The notes below the pieces were generated by a model. It was given only the letters and a program-made list of their open reading frames with translations, did not search any database and was not told the DNA's origin. From Bacteroidota bacterium (GTDB taxonomy: Bacteria > Bacteroidota > Bacteroidia > 2-12-FULL-35-15), in contig CANNHN010000003.1 of the NCBI GenBank assembly GCA_947504725.1, forward strand, positions 338,945 to 402,944: a DNA stretch of 64,000 nt, written 5' to 3'. Numbering within the stretch: the stretch's first letter is position 1; the number at the start of each line of letters is the position of its first letter. Positions 37,654 through 44,594 of this stretch are shown here, in pieces. The position numbers and the translations under genes were made by a program.

Positions 37654-40029
37654 TTATTTTTTCTTACTAACGATTTCAAATTGCTGAATAATCGATTCGC
37701 CTTCTTCATCCACTAAGGTAAGTGTGTGAACGCCTTCATCTGGTGTTAGCCCCATTTGATGATTGCCTTGTGTTGTTCCTAAGAACAAACCATCTAAATG
37801 CCAATAGATAATTGTATTTTCCTTTCGATGCGCCACTTGAAAAATTGTTTTTCCAATAGTTCCGTCAATTTCTATTGGAACATAAATTTTACTGAATTGT
37901 TTTGGATAAATAATTTCCATTCCACTCAACCCTGTTGTTTCGCAATCGCTTCTCAAGGGCGGTATTTCTTTATAATTTGAATTTTTAGATTTATAATACC
38001 ATTCCATTGCGGGTGGTAGCACAAACCAACTGATATGTTTCATTTTATTTACATCTTCACAATTACTGTTTACTCTAAATGTTTCGCTTGCATCTAAATG
38101 TATTAGTCGATGGTATTTGCAAGGCTCTGTTCTTAGTCCATTTTTTTGAATCCAAACTATTTCTACAGGTTCGCAAATATCTGTAGCACGACTACCGCTT
38201 TGTTTACAGAGTTTTATTTTTTCCATTTCATCATAAGGTGGCGTAAACCATTTTGAAGGTTTTAACACACTAAAGATGTCGAATAGGATAGGAGCTGCTG
38301 TTTGTAATCCAACCAACCCAGGTCTGCCTTCACCATCTGCATTTCCAACCCAAACACCAACTACATACTTTGGAGTTACTCCAATTGCCCATCCATCTCT
38401 GTAACCAAAACTGGTCCCCGTTTTCCAAGCAACTTTTGATGAAGATGTATATTGTTTCCATCCAGCATCTTCATCCGGACGAGAGACTTCAACCATCGCT
38501 TCAAACGTGAAATATATTGATGCGGCATCAATTATAGATGTATTATCTAAGTCTATTTTTTGTTCGTCTTGTATAAGATAATATGGGGGATGAAAATCAT
38601 TCTTATCGTATTTGCCATTGTAGGTAGTATAGTGGTTTAAAGTTCTAGCCATGCTTGCATACATTCCAGTTATATCCCAAAGTTTACCTTCCGCTCCTCC
38701 TAAAATGACAGATAATCCATAATGATCTGGAGTGTTTGTGAGCGTTGTCATCCCATACTTTTTTAGATTATAGTTAAATTTTTCAATTCCATAATTTTGT
38801 AACATGCGTACAGCAGGAATATTTAAACTTCTAGCTAATGCTCGTTTAGCAGGAACAGCTCCATCAAATGTTTGATTGTAATTTTGTGGGGCATAGCCTG
38901 CAATTTGTGTAGGGATGTCTGGAATTAAGCTGGTTGATAATATCTCGCCATCGTTTAGCATACTTGCAAATAAAAATGGCTTTAAAATACTTCCTGTGCT
39001 TCTTGGAGCACTTATGATGTCTACATCTCCCTCATACTCTGGTTTCCCTTTATTGTATGTATTTCCAACATATGCCAAAACATTTCCAGTATTTACATCT
39101 AAAACAATTGCACATGCATTGTGAATTTCATTTCCTCTTAAAATTTTATGATGATTTTCAATAATTGCATTTACGCGTTCTTGTAAATGCCCATCAATAG
39201 TAGACTCTATTCTTTGTCCTGAATAATTTTCTTTTGCCGCTCTTTGGAGTAGGTGAGGAGCAATTTGCGGAAGTACATGAGGTTTGCCTGGCAATGGTTC
39301 TTGCTTACTTAACTCGCAAATTTCTTTGTCAATTATTTTTGCAACCAACAATTGATCCAATAACCGATTACGTTTTTTTAATAAACGTTCTTGGTTTTTC
39401 CCTGGATATATTAAACTGGGTGCATTGGGTAATACTGCTAATGTTGCAGCTTCGGCCCATGATAATTTTGAAGGGTCTCTGCCAAAGTAGCGCCAGGATG
39501 CAGCATCAATTCCTACTACATTGCTTCCGAATGGAGCGTTTGATGAGTATAATTCAAGTATTTCTTTTTTTGAATAACTAAATTCTAATCGTGTAGCTAA
39601 AATGATTTCAATTATTTTTTCTAGAAACGTACGTTTTTGCCCTTTTCGTGACATACGTATTACTTGCATACTAATTGTACTTCCGCCACTTAATGTTCGT
39701 TTTGCTTTTATGTTTTGTTTGGTCGCTCTTACTATTGCTGATGGACTAACTCCCCAGTGTGAATAAAATCCTCTGTCTTCGAATTGAATGATGCAATCAA
39801 TAAACTTTTGTGGTAATTTTTTAGTTAATGGGAATCTCCACTGGCCGTCTTTGGCAATTTTTGCTGATAATAGTTCACCTTTATTGTCTTCAAGCACTGT
39901 GCTCGTCTCATTTTTGAATAATGGTGATGGCAGACAGAAATAGTACCAAATGAAGAAAATAAGAAGTGCAATCGAAGATATTCCTTTTTTAGTTTTTAAA
40001 AAAATCAGTATGGAAGGAATGTTTTTCAA
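37654..40029 (-). CDS. pbpC: Penicillin-binding protein 1C
   Basis: A 791-residue class A PBP for peptidoglycan polymerisation and cross-linking in the periplasm. One membrane helix at about 17-32 is followed by the GT51 glycosyltransferase with catalytic Glu84 (FEDRGFYSHWG) and GGSTISMQ, then the transpeptidase with SILK (Ser347), SLN (401-403) and KTGTS (536-540), and a C-terminal BiPBP_C domain (about 700-791). The family is usually next to a large alpha-2-macroglobulin gene; none is found here. The start codon is 6 bp from the stop of the upstream hydroxylase gene, so the two are probably cotranscribed. Confidence 0.93.
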   Translation of the reverse strand: MKNIPSILIFLKTKKGISSIALLIFFIWYYFCLPSPLFKNETSTVLEDNKGELLSAKIAKDGQWRFPLTKKLPQKFIDCIIQFEDRGFYSHWGVSPSAIVRATKQNIKAKRTLSGGSTISMQVIRMSRKGQKRTFLEKIIEIILATRLEFSYSKKEILELYSSNAPFGSNVVGIDAASWRYFGRDPSKLSWAEAATLAVLPNAPSLIYPGKNQERLLKKRNRLLDQLLVAKIIDKEICELSKQEPLPGKPHVLPQIAPHLLQRAAKENYSGQRIESTIDGHLQERVNAIIENHHKILRGNEIHNACAIVLDVNTGNVLAYVGNTYNKGKPEYEGDVDIISAPRSTGSILKPFLFASMLNDGEILSTSLIPDIPTQIAGYAPQNYNQTFDGAVPAKRALARSLNIPAVRMLQNYGIEKFNYNLKKYGMTTLTNTPDHYGLSVILGGAEGKLWDITGMYASMARTLNHYTTYNGKYDKNDFHPPYYLIQDEQKIDLDNTSIIDAASIYFTFEAMVEVSRPDEDAGWKQYTSSSKVAWKTGTSFGYRDGWAIGVTPKYVVGVWVGNADGEGRPGLVGLQTAAPILFDIFSVLKPSKWFTPPYDEMEKIKLCKQSGSRATDICEPVEIVWIQKNGLRTEPCKYHRLIHLDASETFRVNSNCEDVNKMKHISWFVLPPAMEWYYKSKNSNYKEIPPLRSDCETTGLSGMEIIYPKQFSKIYVPIEIDGTIGKTIFQVAHRKENTIIYWHLDGLFLGTTQGNHQMGLTPDEGVHTLTLVDEEGESIIQQFEIVSKKK

Positions 40030-40035
40030 TCAGAT

Positions 40036-40929
40036 TTATGAAGAAGAATTTTTATTTAATAACTCGTTTCGCAGTTGTCGTGCAGTTTTTTTGCTTCCAT
40101 CGTGGCTCCATCCTGGAGGTCCGAATATATACATGAACTTAGCTTTTAAGCTCGATGGTTTTTTTAAATCCTTTGCTATGTTTATCCATTCGTGAAAAAC
40201 CATTTTTAGTGGGTGATATGTTTTTATGTTTTCTGTTAATCCGAAAACAACAACTTCTTTTTTGTCTTCTTCTACAAATGTTCCAAATAGTTTATCCCAT
40301 ATAATAAATACCATTCCCATGTTTTTATCTAAATACATTACATTGCTTGCATGATGAACTCTGTGATGTGAGGGTGTTGACATGAAATGTTCTAAAAAGC
40401 CTAGTTTGTTTACGGTTTTTGTATGAATTAAAATTCCATAAATCTGTGTTGCAGAATAGATAAACATAATATCAATTCCTTTAAACCCTATTAATGCTAA
40501 TGGAATAAAATAGAAGAACCTATATAGTGGTTGAAATACGGATGAACGAAAGCCTACTGTTAAATTAAATTCCTCCGATGAATGGTGTGTTACATGAACG
40601 GCCCAAAACATTCTGCAATAATGATCTACACGATGTAGCCAATAATACATAAAATCTTGCGTAATTAATAAAACAGCCCAATATGCGTACTGATTAGATA
40701 TTTCAACAAATTTAAATTGAAAAAAATAATTTAGAACTATTAAACATATTCCGCGAACAAGAATATCTAACCCTAAATTTAATGATGTAAGATAAATGTT
40801 AGATAGCGTTCCTTTTACTGAATAGTAATTTTTATGATGGATATAACTGAATAGAATTTCAGCCCCAATTACGATTGCATAAATTGGCGTGGTAATAGCA
40901 ATAAGAAGTGCTTCTCTAAACTCATTCAT
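40036..40929 (-). CDS. Fatty acid hydroxylase/sterol desaturase superfamily membrane protein
   Basis: A 297-residue di-iron membrane enzyme with four or more helices. The histidine boxes HRVDH, HVTHHS, and HHRVHH, plus HTKTVNKLG in between, are complete. The family includes sterol C4/C5 oxidases, alkylglycerol monooxygenase-like proteins and carotenoid hydroxylases; the substrate cannot be told from sequence. It sits 6 bp upstream of pbpC on the same strand. A Lys/Asn-rich cytoplasmic tail ends the protein. Confidence 0.85.
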   Translation of the reverse strand: MNEFREALLIAITTPIYAIVIGAEILFSYIHHKNYYSVKGTLSNIYLTSLNLGLDILVRGICLIVLNYFFQFKFVEISNQYAYWAVLLITQDFMYYWLHRVDHYCRMFWAVHVTHHSSEEFNLTVGFRSSVFQPLYRFFYFIPLALIGFKGIDIMFIYSATQIYGILIHTKTVNKLGFLEHFMSTPSHHRVHHASNVMYLDKNMGMVFIIWDKLFGTFVEEDKKEVVVFGLTENIKTYHPLKMVFHEWINIAKDLKKPSSLKAKFMYIFGPPGWSHDGSKKTARQLRNELLNKNSSS

Positions 40930-41002: not shown

Positions 41003-41830
41003 TTAATGGATGTAAACCTTTTTGGTATAAACGATACTTTCTTGTGAAATAGTGACAAAATATATCCCTGTTTTTTCTTTTTTCATATCAATCGAAGTTT
41101 CCTTGTCTGCTATTGACCCAACGTAAACTTCTTGTCCAAGAGCGTTGGTTATCCTCACATCTGCTTGTATTAGTTCGTTTGTGGTAAATTGAATGACGAT
41201 GTTATTATCAGAACTGTAAATTGAAGCATTATTCATTAATGCATTTTCAGATATGCCTACTGGCATTTCTCCAGCCAAAATATATGCATTTGGAACGGAA
41301 TTGTAAGCATAATCTTTAATTGTAAACAGGCTAGCAGTCGCATCAATATCAAATCTAGCCCATCCATAATGTAATTGTGATCCAATATAAAATTGCAATC
41401 CAATATACTTATCAGTTTGTCCTAAAAAGTTACCATAACTAGACCCAGAACCAAAATAGCTTGCCATCGACTGACTCGAACCAAAGTTGAATTGTAAAGT
41501 TGATTTGATTGTATCTCCAGAGTTAAATGCAAATGGATATACATATGCTCCAATTGTGTCGCCTGCGACCCCATTGCTACCTGCTGGCGTTACAGCTACT
41601 TGATTAGATGTATACGATGATGATGTGCCTATATTTAAATTAAATGCAAAGTCGAAAACACCACCATTGTCCAAATCAAGGTTATAATATGAACCTCCTA
41701 AAGTTGTTGTTGAATCTGGATTAACATCGGTATAAATAATTTGAGCATCCGCTTGCGTGCTAATTAATGCAATTGATCCAGCAAGTGCTGAATATGACTT
41801 TAGTTTGTTGTTTAACGAAGGAGTTGTCAT
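41003..41830 (-). CDS. Secreted protein with T9SS type A sorting domain
   Basis: A 275-residue protein from the ATG at 41830. An in-frame ATG at 41848 exists, but a -7 box lies at 41846-41853, so the shorter start is preferred. The N-terminal LKSYSALAGSIALISTQADA is a signal peptide; a beta-rich domain follows (YTDVNPDSTTTLGGSYYNLD, then YGWARFDIDATASLFTIKDY), and the sorting domain has VRITNALGQEVYVGSI and TGIYFVTISQESIVYTKKVY. Such domains occur with choice-of-anchor proteins of unknown role. Function unknown. Confidence 0.78.
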   Translation of the reverse strand: MTTPSLNNKLKSYSALAGSIALISTQADAQIIYTDVNPDSTTTLGGSYYNLDLDNGGVFDFAFNLNIGTSSSYTSNQVAVTPAGSNGVAGDTIGAYVYPFAFNSGDTIKSTLQFNFGSSQSMASYFGSGSSYGNFLGQTDKYIGLQFYIGSQLHYGWARFDIDATASLFTIKDYAYNSVPNAYILAGEMPVGISENALMNNASIYSSDNNIVIQFTTNELIQADVRITNALGQEVYVGSIADKETSIDMKKEKTGIYFVTISQESIVYTKKVYIH

Positions 41831-41863: not shown

Positions 41864-44425
41864 TTATGCCGAATTATTTTTTTTATTCCTATAAAGTAAA
41901 GGGTCTACATTTTTTATCATTGCATCTATGTTTAAATCTGCATCTAGGAACATTGATAGTTTTTCGGCAACATCTGATGGATTGGAAATTACATCTTTGT
42001 AGTCAACATACAATACATCAAATTGTGGATGGTTCTGGATCCAAGACCTTGTTTTTTCTAATTGTTTAGTAAATGTTTCCGCTAATACGGTTGGATATAC
42101 TTTGTTTTTAATTTCTAAAGATTTTCCTAACATTATTTGTTGCGATTGAATAATTTCTTCCATTTCACGCTCCATAAAAATTACTTTATAATTATAGTTT
42201 GTGGGTAAATGTTGAAGAAGTTGCGCGATTACTTTTATTACTTTGTTCTGTCCTTCATCCAACCATGAATTATCTTTAGCTATATTTTTTACCTTTTGAT
42301 ATTCTAAATATCCTTTTGGATTATTAGAATCCTCTTTTCTTTCATTGTCTGTTAAAATAGCTAATCCTCCTGCTTGCATCATCTGCATCATCATTGAAGT
42401 TCCAGATCTTGGCAGTCCAGATACAATTGTTATAGTTCCTTTAATATTATTTTTTATAAATGCGTTGTGCTTTTCAGCTTCTTCTATATTCAAGACATTG
42501 TTAGTATATAACTTTATTAGATAGCTATGCGCTTTTCTATTCCCTGGTTGAAATGTAGTAACTACTTTAAATGCTTCAATTGCTCTTTCATACATTTCTA
42601 AACGGTAAAATACTTCTCCTAAAAAATAATGGGCAAGCGGATTATTAAAAATAAGTGAAACGGAGGAAAGAAGATGGTCTAAAGATTTTTCTAATTGGTC
42701 TTGACGAAGAAATGAAATACCTATTCCCATGTGTGCTCCCGCGTTGTCCGGATCTATAGCTAATGCTTTTTCAAATGCAGCTTGTGCTTCTTTCCATTCT
42801 TTTAGTTTAATAAATGCCTCACCAATTTTAATGTGCAATGTTGGCATATGCGCTATTGTTTCCATTGCTTTTCTAAAAAGCACCAACGCCTTTTTGGGTT
42901 TGTTTTGAGACACTAAAAAAACACCTTCTAAGTAATCCAGTTGTGGTAATTCTTTTTTATCTAATTTTTTTATTTCATCAATTACTGAAATGCATTTATC
43001 AAATCTTCTTGATTTTTGCAAACATTCAATATATTTTAATCCGTATCGGGCAATTCCTGGTGATTGACTGTATAGTTTTTCTAGTATTACTTCGGCTAAA
43101 TTTGCTTGATCTTTATATAAATATATTCGTGCTAAATTAAATTGCGTTTCATTTACAACTTTCTCAACGGTTTTTGTTGCATCTTCATCAGCAGGTTCTA
43201 TATACCCTAATTCTATTAGCTGTTTAAGGGATTCTTGCGCTGCAAGTGGGTCTTCTTTTAATGTTTCTGGATGATTTCCGGAATTCCCTTCAACTGTTTC
43301 CCACGTATCAATATATTCTGGAATTATTTTTTTATCGAATACTTGAGTTAATACTTTTCCATCCATATCTTTTCCAACTGGCAAACCAAATAAGGTTAAA
43401 ATAGTTGGAGTGATATCTAATAACGTAGCACCATAAACTCGCTCATCTTTTAGTATGTTTGGACCTGACATACAAAACATTCCAAATTGACGATGTTCCA
43501 AAGCAGGCGCCATTGGTTCTGTTGGTAGGCGTTTTGGGCGAAGATGGTCGGAGTGAAACCCGTGGTCAGAAAGAATGATGATGGTAGCATCTTCACCAGC
43601 AAGTTTAATATATCGTTCTAACATCATATCGTGAAAACGATATATGCCATTGATAACATCTTTGTAAAGTTCAAATTTTTCATCAGAAATGCCTTGCATC
43701 TGAGGCGGATGATATTTCATAAAACCATGACTCAAATGGTCAATCGTATCAAAATATACAGCAGTTAAATCCCACGGTTCATTCTCCATGAGCCATGTTG
43801 CAGCAGCATGTATGGATGCGCATTCTGAAATGTTTTTTGCAAGCACTACTAAGTTTTTATCTTTTTCTTGATCAACTAAATGTGCTTTTGGAATAAATGG
43901 AAGTATGTGTTCTGATGTTATTTCTGTAGGATGTACTCTGAAGTCTGCAATTGTTTTTGCTAGTGCTTCCGGGAAAATGGTTCCATCTTTAATTTGCCAG
44001 TCTTCTAATTTCTCACTTGTTATTTTTTGAAATAAATTCGAAACCATAACTCCATTAATTGGCTCTGCAGGATTACTTGGCCACCAGCCAACGATATTAG
44101 ATTTTAAATTGTTTTGTGATAAAATATTCCACAATGCTTTACATTTTCTACTTGTCGATGTCACTGGTCGTATTTCCATTTTATCTGGAACGGGTTCAGT
44201 GAAATTTAATATTCCATGCTTGTCTCCTAATTTTCCCGTTGCTATGGAGGTCCATAAAATTGGAGATAGTACAGGTTCAAGTGTAGCGATGTCACCCATT
44301 ACACCTTTGTTAATTAATGATTCTAATGTAGGCATGAGTCCTGCATCAAGTAATGGATTTATGATTTTCCAATCGGCAGCATCCCAGCCAAGTAATAAAA
44401 CTTTTTTTGCTAATCGATCATTCAT
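41864..44425 (-). CDS. Alkaline-phosphatase-superfamily hydrolase / TPR / sulfotransferase fusion
   Basis: An 853-residue protein counted from the ATG at 44425, which overlaps the stop of the small upstream ORF (ATGAATGA); a longer start at 44464 would run through that ORF. Residues 8-360 are a phosphodiesterase/nucleotide-pyrophosphatase-type alkaline phosphatase: Asp15 (LGWDAADW), probable nucleophile Ser54 (LSPILWTS), DTIDHLSH (Asp226, His230), SDHG (Asp287, His288) and His311. Residues 425-655 are about six TPR units. Residues 664-850 are a sulfotransferase with the 5'-phosphosulfate loop GLPRSGTSMMMQMM and the MEREMEEIIQSQ and VDYKDVISNP regions. No signal peptide is visible, so it should be cytosolic. 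Substrates are unknown. Confidence 0.85.
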   Translation of the reverse strand: MNDRLAKKVLLLGWDAADWKIINPLLDAGLMPTLESLINKGVMGDIATLEPVLSPILWTSIATGKLGDKHGILNFTEPVPDKMEIRPVTSTSRKCKALWNILSQNNLKSNIVGWWPSNPAEPINGVMVSNLFQKITSEKLEDWQIKDGTIFPEALAKTIADFRVHPTEITSEHILPFIPKAHLVDQEKDKNLVVLAKNISECASIHAAATWLMENEPWDLTAVYFDTIDHLSHGFMKYHPPQMQGISDEKFELYKDVINGIYRFHDMMLERYIKLAGEDATIIILSDHGFHSDHLRPKRLPTEPMAPALEHRQFGMFCMSGPNILKDERVYGATLLDITPTILTLFGLPVGKDMDGKVLTQVFDKKIIPEYIDTWETVEGNSGNHPETLKEDPLAAQESLKQLIELGYIEPADEDATKTVEKVVNETQFNLARIYLYKDQANLAEVILEKLYSQSPGIARYGLKYIECLQKSRRFDKCISVIDEIKKLDKKELPQLDYLEGVFLVSQNKPKKALVLFRKAMETIAHMPTLHIKIGEAFIKLKEWKEAQAAFEKALAIDPDNAGAHMGIGISFLRQDQLEKSLDHLLSSVSLIFNNPLAHYFLGEVFYRLEMYERAIEAFKVVTTFQPGNRKAHSYLIKLYTNNVLNIEEAEKHNAFIKNNIKGTITIVSGLPRSGTSMMMQMMQAGGLAILTDNERKEDSNNPKGYLEYQKVKNIAKDNSWLDEGQNKVIKVIAQLLQHLPTNYNYKVIFMEREMEEIIQSQQIMLGKSLEIKNKVYPTVLAETFTKQLEKTRSWIQNHPQFDVLYVDYKDVISNPSDVAEKLSMFLDADLNIDAMIKNVDPLLYRNKKNNSA

Positions 44426-44594
44426 TTGTAGTATTGTTTTTTTTCTTGTCAATACTTTCTTCACGTTTTTTTCTCCATGCTTTTATTCCAACAGCTCCCA
44501 ATGCAAGCAGGCCAAGCGATCCATCAGCAGGTATTTCAACAGCGGTTAAGTTTTTTGTTGAAATAGTATTTTCAGAATTATTTTTCTTACCCAT
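44418..44594 (-). CDS. 58-residue small protein with a sorting-signal-like C-terminus
   Basis: ATG at 44594, TGA at 44418. The N-terminal part is polar (MGKKNNSENTISTKNLTAVE); then comes IPADGSLGLLALGAVGIKAW, directly followed by RKKREE and a Lys/Asn-rich tail. The order Pro-containing motif, short hydrophobic stretch, basic cluster recalls PEP-CTERM and PID-CTERM type sorting signals or a single weak membrane anchor. The stop overlaps the start of the hydrolase-sulfotransferase gene in ATGAATGA, strong evidence for translational coupling and thus for a real gene. No exosortase is visible in the window. Function unknown. Confidence 0.65.
   Translation of the reverse strand: MGKKNNSENTISTKNLTAVEIPADGSLGLLALGAVGIKAWRKKREESIDKKKNNTTNE

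Follow-up and report, generated by a model that had tools for sequence, protein, structure and literature searches.

The window analysed here is a 64,000-nucleotide stretch of contig CANNHN010000003.1 from a Bacteroidota bacterium, and reading from 44594 to 44418 on its minus strand we find a small ORF (44418..44594, (-)) that starts with ATG, has 58 codons and encodes a 58 aa protein (MGKKNNSENTISTKNLTAVEIPADGSLGLLALGAVGIKAWRKKREESIDKKKNNTTNE) with a PEP-CTERM-like core and no signal peptide. It overlaps the following gene by 8 bases, ATGAATGA (44418..44425, (-)), which hold both the TGA stop of the small ORF and the ATG of the large gene and are the same in most congeners, suggesting translational coupling of the two. 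The large gene (41864..44425, (-)) encodes the predicted partner enzyme, an 853 aa protein in which a type I phosphodiesterase domain assigned by Pfam (PF01663) is followed by TPR and sulfotransferase domains. Fold matches are to ENPP/NPP phosphodiesterases and to an OGT-like TPR superhelix, the catalytic and PAPS-loop residues are conserved, and no signal peptide was apparent by eye. The phosphodiesterase domain shares the NPP fold with ENPP/NPP phosphodiesterases and, similar to O-GlcNAc transferase-type enzymes, the protein places a TPR superhelix before a transferase; however, none of the solved-structure matches examined (OGT-type and ENPP/NPP) combines a three-domain sulfotransferase fusion with a coupled peptide. 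The third member of the module is a secreted protein of the YGWxR family (41003..41830, (-)), recognised by a signal peptide with KLKSYSALAG, by HYGWARFD...DYAY, and by a T9SS tail that matches TIGR04183. Downstream of the module the window carries a fatty-acid-hydroxylase-family gene (40036..40929), present after the module in most congeners, and a penicillin-binding protein 1C-like gene (37654..40029), present there in several.

The initial annotation had proposed that a 58-residue protein was overlooked here and is tightly coupled to the enzyme gene, and on both counts our data agree with it: the small ORF is a real, coupled and conserved small protein, with homologs in the same gene order and under purifying selection. 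Homologs were found in 12/59 relatives, and no Pfam or NCBIfam model among those used captures the family. Columns that are invariant or nearly so in two alignments (A1 and A2) define a conserved core, GSLGLLALGAVGIKAWRKKR (residues 25-44; 44463..44522, (-)), with the family consensus [IV]PxEGSLGLLALGxxGLxxWRxxR, which replaces the PADGSLG motif put forward earlier. Among nine congeners pS is 0.62 and pN 0.054 in the core, giving a pN/pS of ~0.09 with synonymous sites near saturation, whereas in the flanks, 15 codons either way, pN is 0.44-0.51 and pN/pS ~0.7-0.8, a pattern that indicates strong purifying selection on the core. Because the residues of GSLGLLALG are encoded by 4-7 different codons per position among 32 sequences, selection acts on the protein. 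In the same 32 sequences R41 is present in all, R44 in 30 and Ser26 in 30 (T or M in the other two), and polar residues are tolerated at positions 35, 38, 42 and 43, which make up one helix face. A scan of named genomes had been searched by core patterns, which overstated the invariance and biased the counts; it was replaced by a sample selected by the enzyme, and in the latter GSIGLLALG, GSMGILALG, GSLGILAHG and GSLALLAMG are found as tolerated variants.

For a fair test of linkage we used 30 Bacteroidia loci picked by the enzyme alone, and a core ORF lies upstream of the enzyme in 29 of them, 27 times as a separate ORF directly upstream and twice as an in-frame fusion, with one locus (L161) having no core. 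In the set of the genus and its relatives linkage is 12/12, the 12 relatives with the core being the same 12 that hold a full-length enzyme, while a thirteenth (G001) has an enzyme that is fragmented and less closely related, the gene seen upstream of it being a ligase. A related phosphodiesterase-TPR protein with neither sulfotransferase domain nor core was also seen in this genome (L078/L136), directly after an AMP-ligase-like gene. One enzyme search scored two candidates per genome, and it was not counted as evidence of absence. Overlaps or short gaps between core ORF and enzyme gene are conserved, with a spacing that ranges from overlap to >60 bases. As the short ORF overlaps the enzyme start in most loci, its translation might merely regulate that of the enzyme gene; however, the core amino acids are conserved while the spacing varies, and the core is also found fused in frame, within another protein and unlinked to the enzyme, so that we regard a leader peptide as very improbable.

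The two native fusions come from genomes of two different families (G614 and G653) and place the core at the enzyme N-terminus: L149 starts MSSPNYTIPKEGSLGLLALGAKGLKAWREV... and L157 starts MTEKTYTPDAQGSLGLLALGYRGLEAWRKA..., and both read without a stop into the enzyme with no other ATG between. In a further locus (L041, 1468-2436) the core forms the C-terminus of a glycosyltransferase-like protein that ends 3 bases before the enzyme gene. Of all the evidence, this locus and the two fusions speak most strongly for a cytosolic peptide working alongside the enzyme. The peptide had been suggested to be a substrate, a sorting tag or a membrane anchor of the enzyme; the in-frame fusions favour a cytosolic subunit over the first two, and an anchor role stays in contention, as discussed below. 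That the enzyme sulfates the peptide, or modifies it in some other way, could be argued from the peptide being encoded together with a sulfotransferase and from the nearly invariant Ser26, but the family has no conserved Tyr or Thr, the serine is itself replaced in two sequences, and a fusion in two species better fits a subunit than a substrate that is turned over, which makes this role improbable. An orphan core protein (MEQHNHTREF...EGSLGLLALGSQGLLTWRQKRAEL...) occurs in G298 (L051/L093), a genome rated complete in which we looked for the enzyme and an exosortase and found neither.

When the native fusion L149 was modelled with AlphaFold, using the fusion itself as query and an alignment with 33 core rows, the mean pLDDT was 92.6 and the pTM 0.87, with ~95 over the core and 68 in the linker, and helices were predicted in the core at 14-18 and 21-31. 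Naive addition of free-core rows had misaligned the enzyme N-terminus, and the alignment that gave the best compromise (A9) misplaces the tail after the core in the linker. High pLDDT values in the core may mean no more than that a helix is locally well predicted, and need not indicate docking. A model of L032 with its stop read through gave a core pLDDT of 39-58, with only two alignment rows covering the core, and mutual information between core and enzyme showed nothing above noise.

The initial annotation had also likened the peptide to PEP-CTERM and PID-CTERM sorting signals. The PEP-CTERM likeness is genuine in the order of its parts, as the Pro, hydrophobic and WR-basic segments are colinear with those of PEP-CTERM (TIGR02595, PF07589; compare VPEPASLGLLAVGAAGLLIWRRSR of L124 with VPLEGSLGLLALGAEGLLQWRKKR of L147), the window core having WRKKR as its basic cluster after the hydrophobic stretch, and as a version in cis stands on the YGW protein adjoining the same enzyme in Verrucomicrobia. 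PEP-CTERM is defined by a near-invariant Pro-Glu-Pro, a strongly hydrophobic transmembrane stretch of 14 residues and then a basic cluster, placed at the extreme C-terminus of proteins that have an N-terminal signal peptide (97% of members) and occur in several copies per genome (Haft 2006, PMC1569441). Against this definition, none of the aligned free cores has the PEP tripeptide, the window reading IPADG and the family PxEG or TxxG. The uncharged run is 13 residues in the window, and the median is 13 (7-20) in free cores versus 16 (13-23) in the PEP-CTERM tails found in cis (p=3e-5), with a minority of free cores reaching 14; position 35 is polar or charged in 11/32, and the run is often interrupted by K, D, R or E. 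No signal peptide is present in the free core proteins, the longest uncharged run of each lying in the core itself, and the core stands alone or is fused to a cytosolic enzyme, apparently with no exosortase required. The core is followed by a further tail of 14 residues in the window and 4-34 in homologs, sits at the N-terminus or inside the protein where it is fused (two loci), and occurs in a single copy in the window's genome (G000).

In profile searches PF07589 gives the window protein 15.4 bits, below the cut-off of 20.7, TIGR02595 matches 1/28 family members at E<=0.01, and the best sub-threshold match is to PFE-CTERM (NF050011), which is reached by 6/28 members at E<=0.01 and gives the window protein 17.8 bits, below its curated cut-off of 24. 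The PID-CTERM model (NF046080) does not match the window protein at E<=10, although the protein starts with a P-x-D-G-x-L-like segment and the genome does hold a PID-CTERM/exosortase X pair. Thus membership in PEP-CTERM fails, and the core would appear to be either related to or a close mimic of PEP-CTERM tails. A working sorting signal is not supported, for the peptide has neither signal peptide nor PEP, its hydrophobic run is shorter and often interrupted, it has a further tail, it is present in one copy, and in many of its carriers no exosortase was detected.

The remark that no exosortase is visible holds for the window only, as the same genome encodes exosortase X (XrtX; NF046081, 183 bits against a cut-off of 170) on another contig. 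There, on contig 8 (L018, 1471-1983 and 2011-2259), XrtX adjoins an 82-aa PID-CTERM-like protein that scores 20.9 bits against NF046080 (cut-off 26) and bears a signal peptide, unlike the small ORF product. Repeated T9SS-type proteins flank this pair. Cleavage of the peptide by the organism's own exosortase would accord with XrtX in the genome, with the sub-threshold matches to PFE-CTERM, PEP-CTERM and related models, and with the suggestive finding that among the 59 relatives an exosortase-like match occurs in 12/12 core carriers versus 24/47 non-carriers, a comparison confounded by kinship. We nevertheless consider an exosortase substrate quite improbable given the features just listed, the PID-CTERM-like partner that XrtX already has beside it, and the lack of an exosortase match at E<=0.01 in 13/24 wider carriers, most of these 13 being draft assemblies but the complete G298 among them. 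Tethering of the soluble enzyme by a peptide that sits in or on the inner membrane, with no exosortase processing, fares somewhat better: a hydrophobic run followed by WRxxR resembles a short helix with an interfacial Trp and a basic cluster, the PEP-CTERM relatives are membrane helices, and two species have the core joined to the N-terminus of the enzyme. Yet in many cases the run spans just 7-13 residues, with charged residues breaking it, and the residue-by-residue conservation of GSLGLLALG far exceeds the needs of an anchor, so we view this as unlikely.

The module as a whole consists of the core, the enzyme and one to three YGWxR secreted proteins (HYGWxR...DYAY), whose genes follow that of the enzyme or, in some loci, precede it. 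It is present in contigs assigned to several phyla, and we found no description of it in the open-licence literature. The signal peptides of the YGW proteins (window, L019-L049, L123, L124, L174 and L182) share a [KR]LxxYSxxAG-like motif that is unusually conserved across phyla, with its tyrosine standing where the hydrophobic part of the signal peptide begins; the sulfotransferase encoded alongside might act on this tyrosine. In Verrucomicrobia, where PEP-CTERM proteins are common generally (PMC1569441), no free core was seen, and the YGW-type protein directly upstream of the enzyme often ends in a PEP-CTERM tail that matches the core (about 12 loci). A search of 141 Verrucomicrobia genomes with the free-core profile returned 15 matches, of which 11 are YGW tails, the best being PAEGSLGLLALGAVGLQAWWKSRR in G464. 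The free core and the YGW tail are likely related by descent, one lineage having either lost the tail from the protein to a free peptide or the other having gained it by fusion, while convergence may also account for so short a segment.

For this real, conserved and enzyme-linked small protein, with its in-frame fusions and its place in a module with the YGW protein, the explanation we favour, at a probability of roughly 0.6, is that it is a cytosolic docking subunit of the enzyme that matches the PEP-CTERM tail of the co-encoded YGW protein. A short helical docking peptide would be produced in step with the enzyme through translational coupling and would pack against the NPP-TPR-sulfotransferase protein. 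The free peptide would correspond to the C-terminal PEP-CTERM tail of the YGW protein in Verrucomicrobia, and in Bacteroidota, as in some contigs with another assignment, this tail would have been detached from its client and kept free or fused to the enzyme, with the client, presumably the YGW protein, using T9SS or another anchor. By binding, the peptide would mimic or replace the tail of the client and so might recruit, activate or position the enzyme. Counting against a docking subunit are the orphan core of G298 with no enzyme, the enzyme of L161 with no core, the core on a glycosyltransferase-like protein in L041, the low core pLDDT where few core rows were available, and the null mutual information. 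A more far-reaching version, which we offer as speculation, is that a PEP-CTERM-like tail acting in trans serves as a recognition cofactor with which the NPP-TPR-sulfotransferase modifies a co-encoded surface protein before export, perhaps at the tyrosine near the signal peptide, in an undescribed multi-phylum system.

These observations add a conserved family of small proteins tied to an unstudied three-domain enzyme and to a candidate secreted client, and they suggest that PEP-CTERM-type tails may be recognised by something besides an exosortase, an idea that the fused, free and in-cis forms of the core make directly testable.
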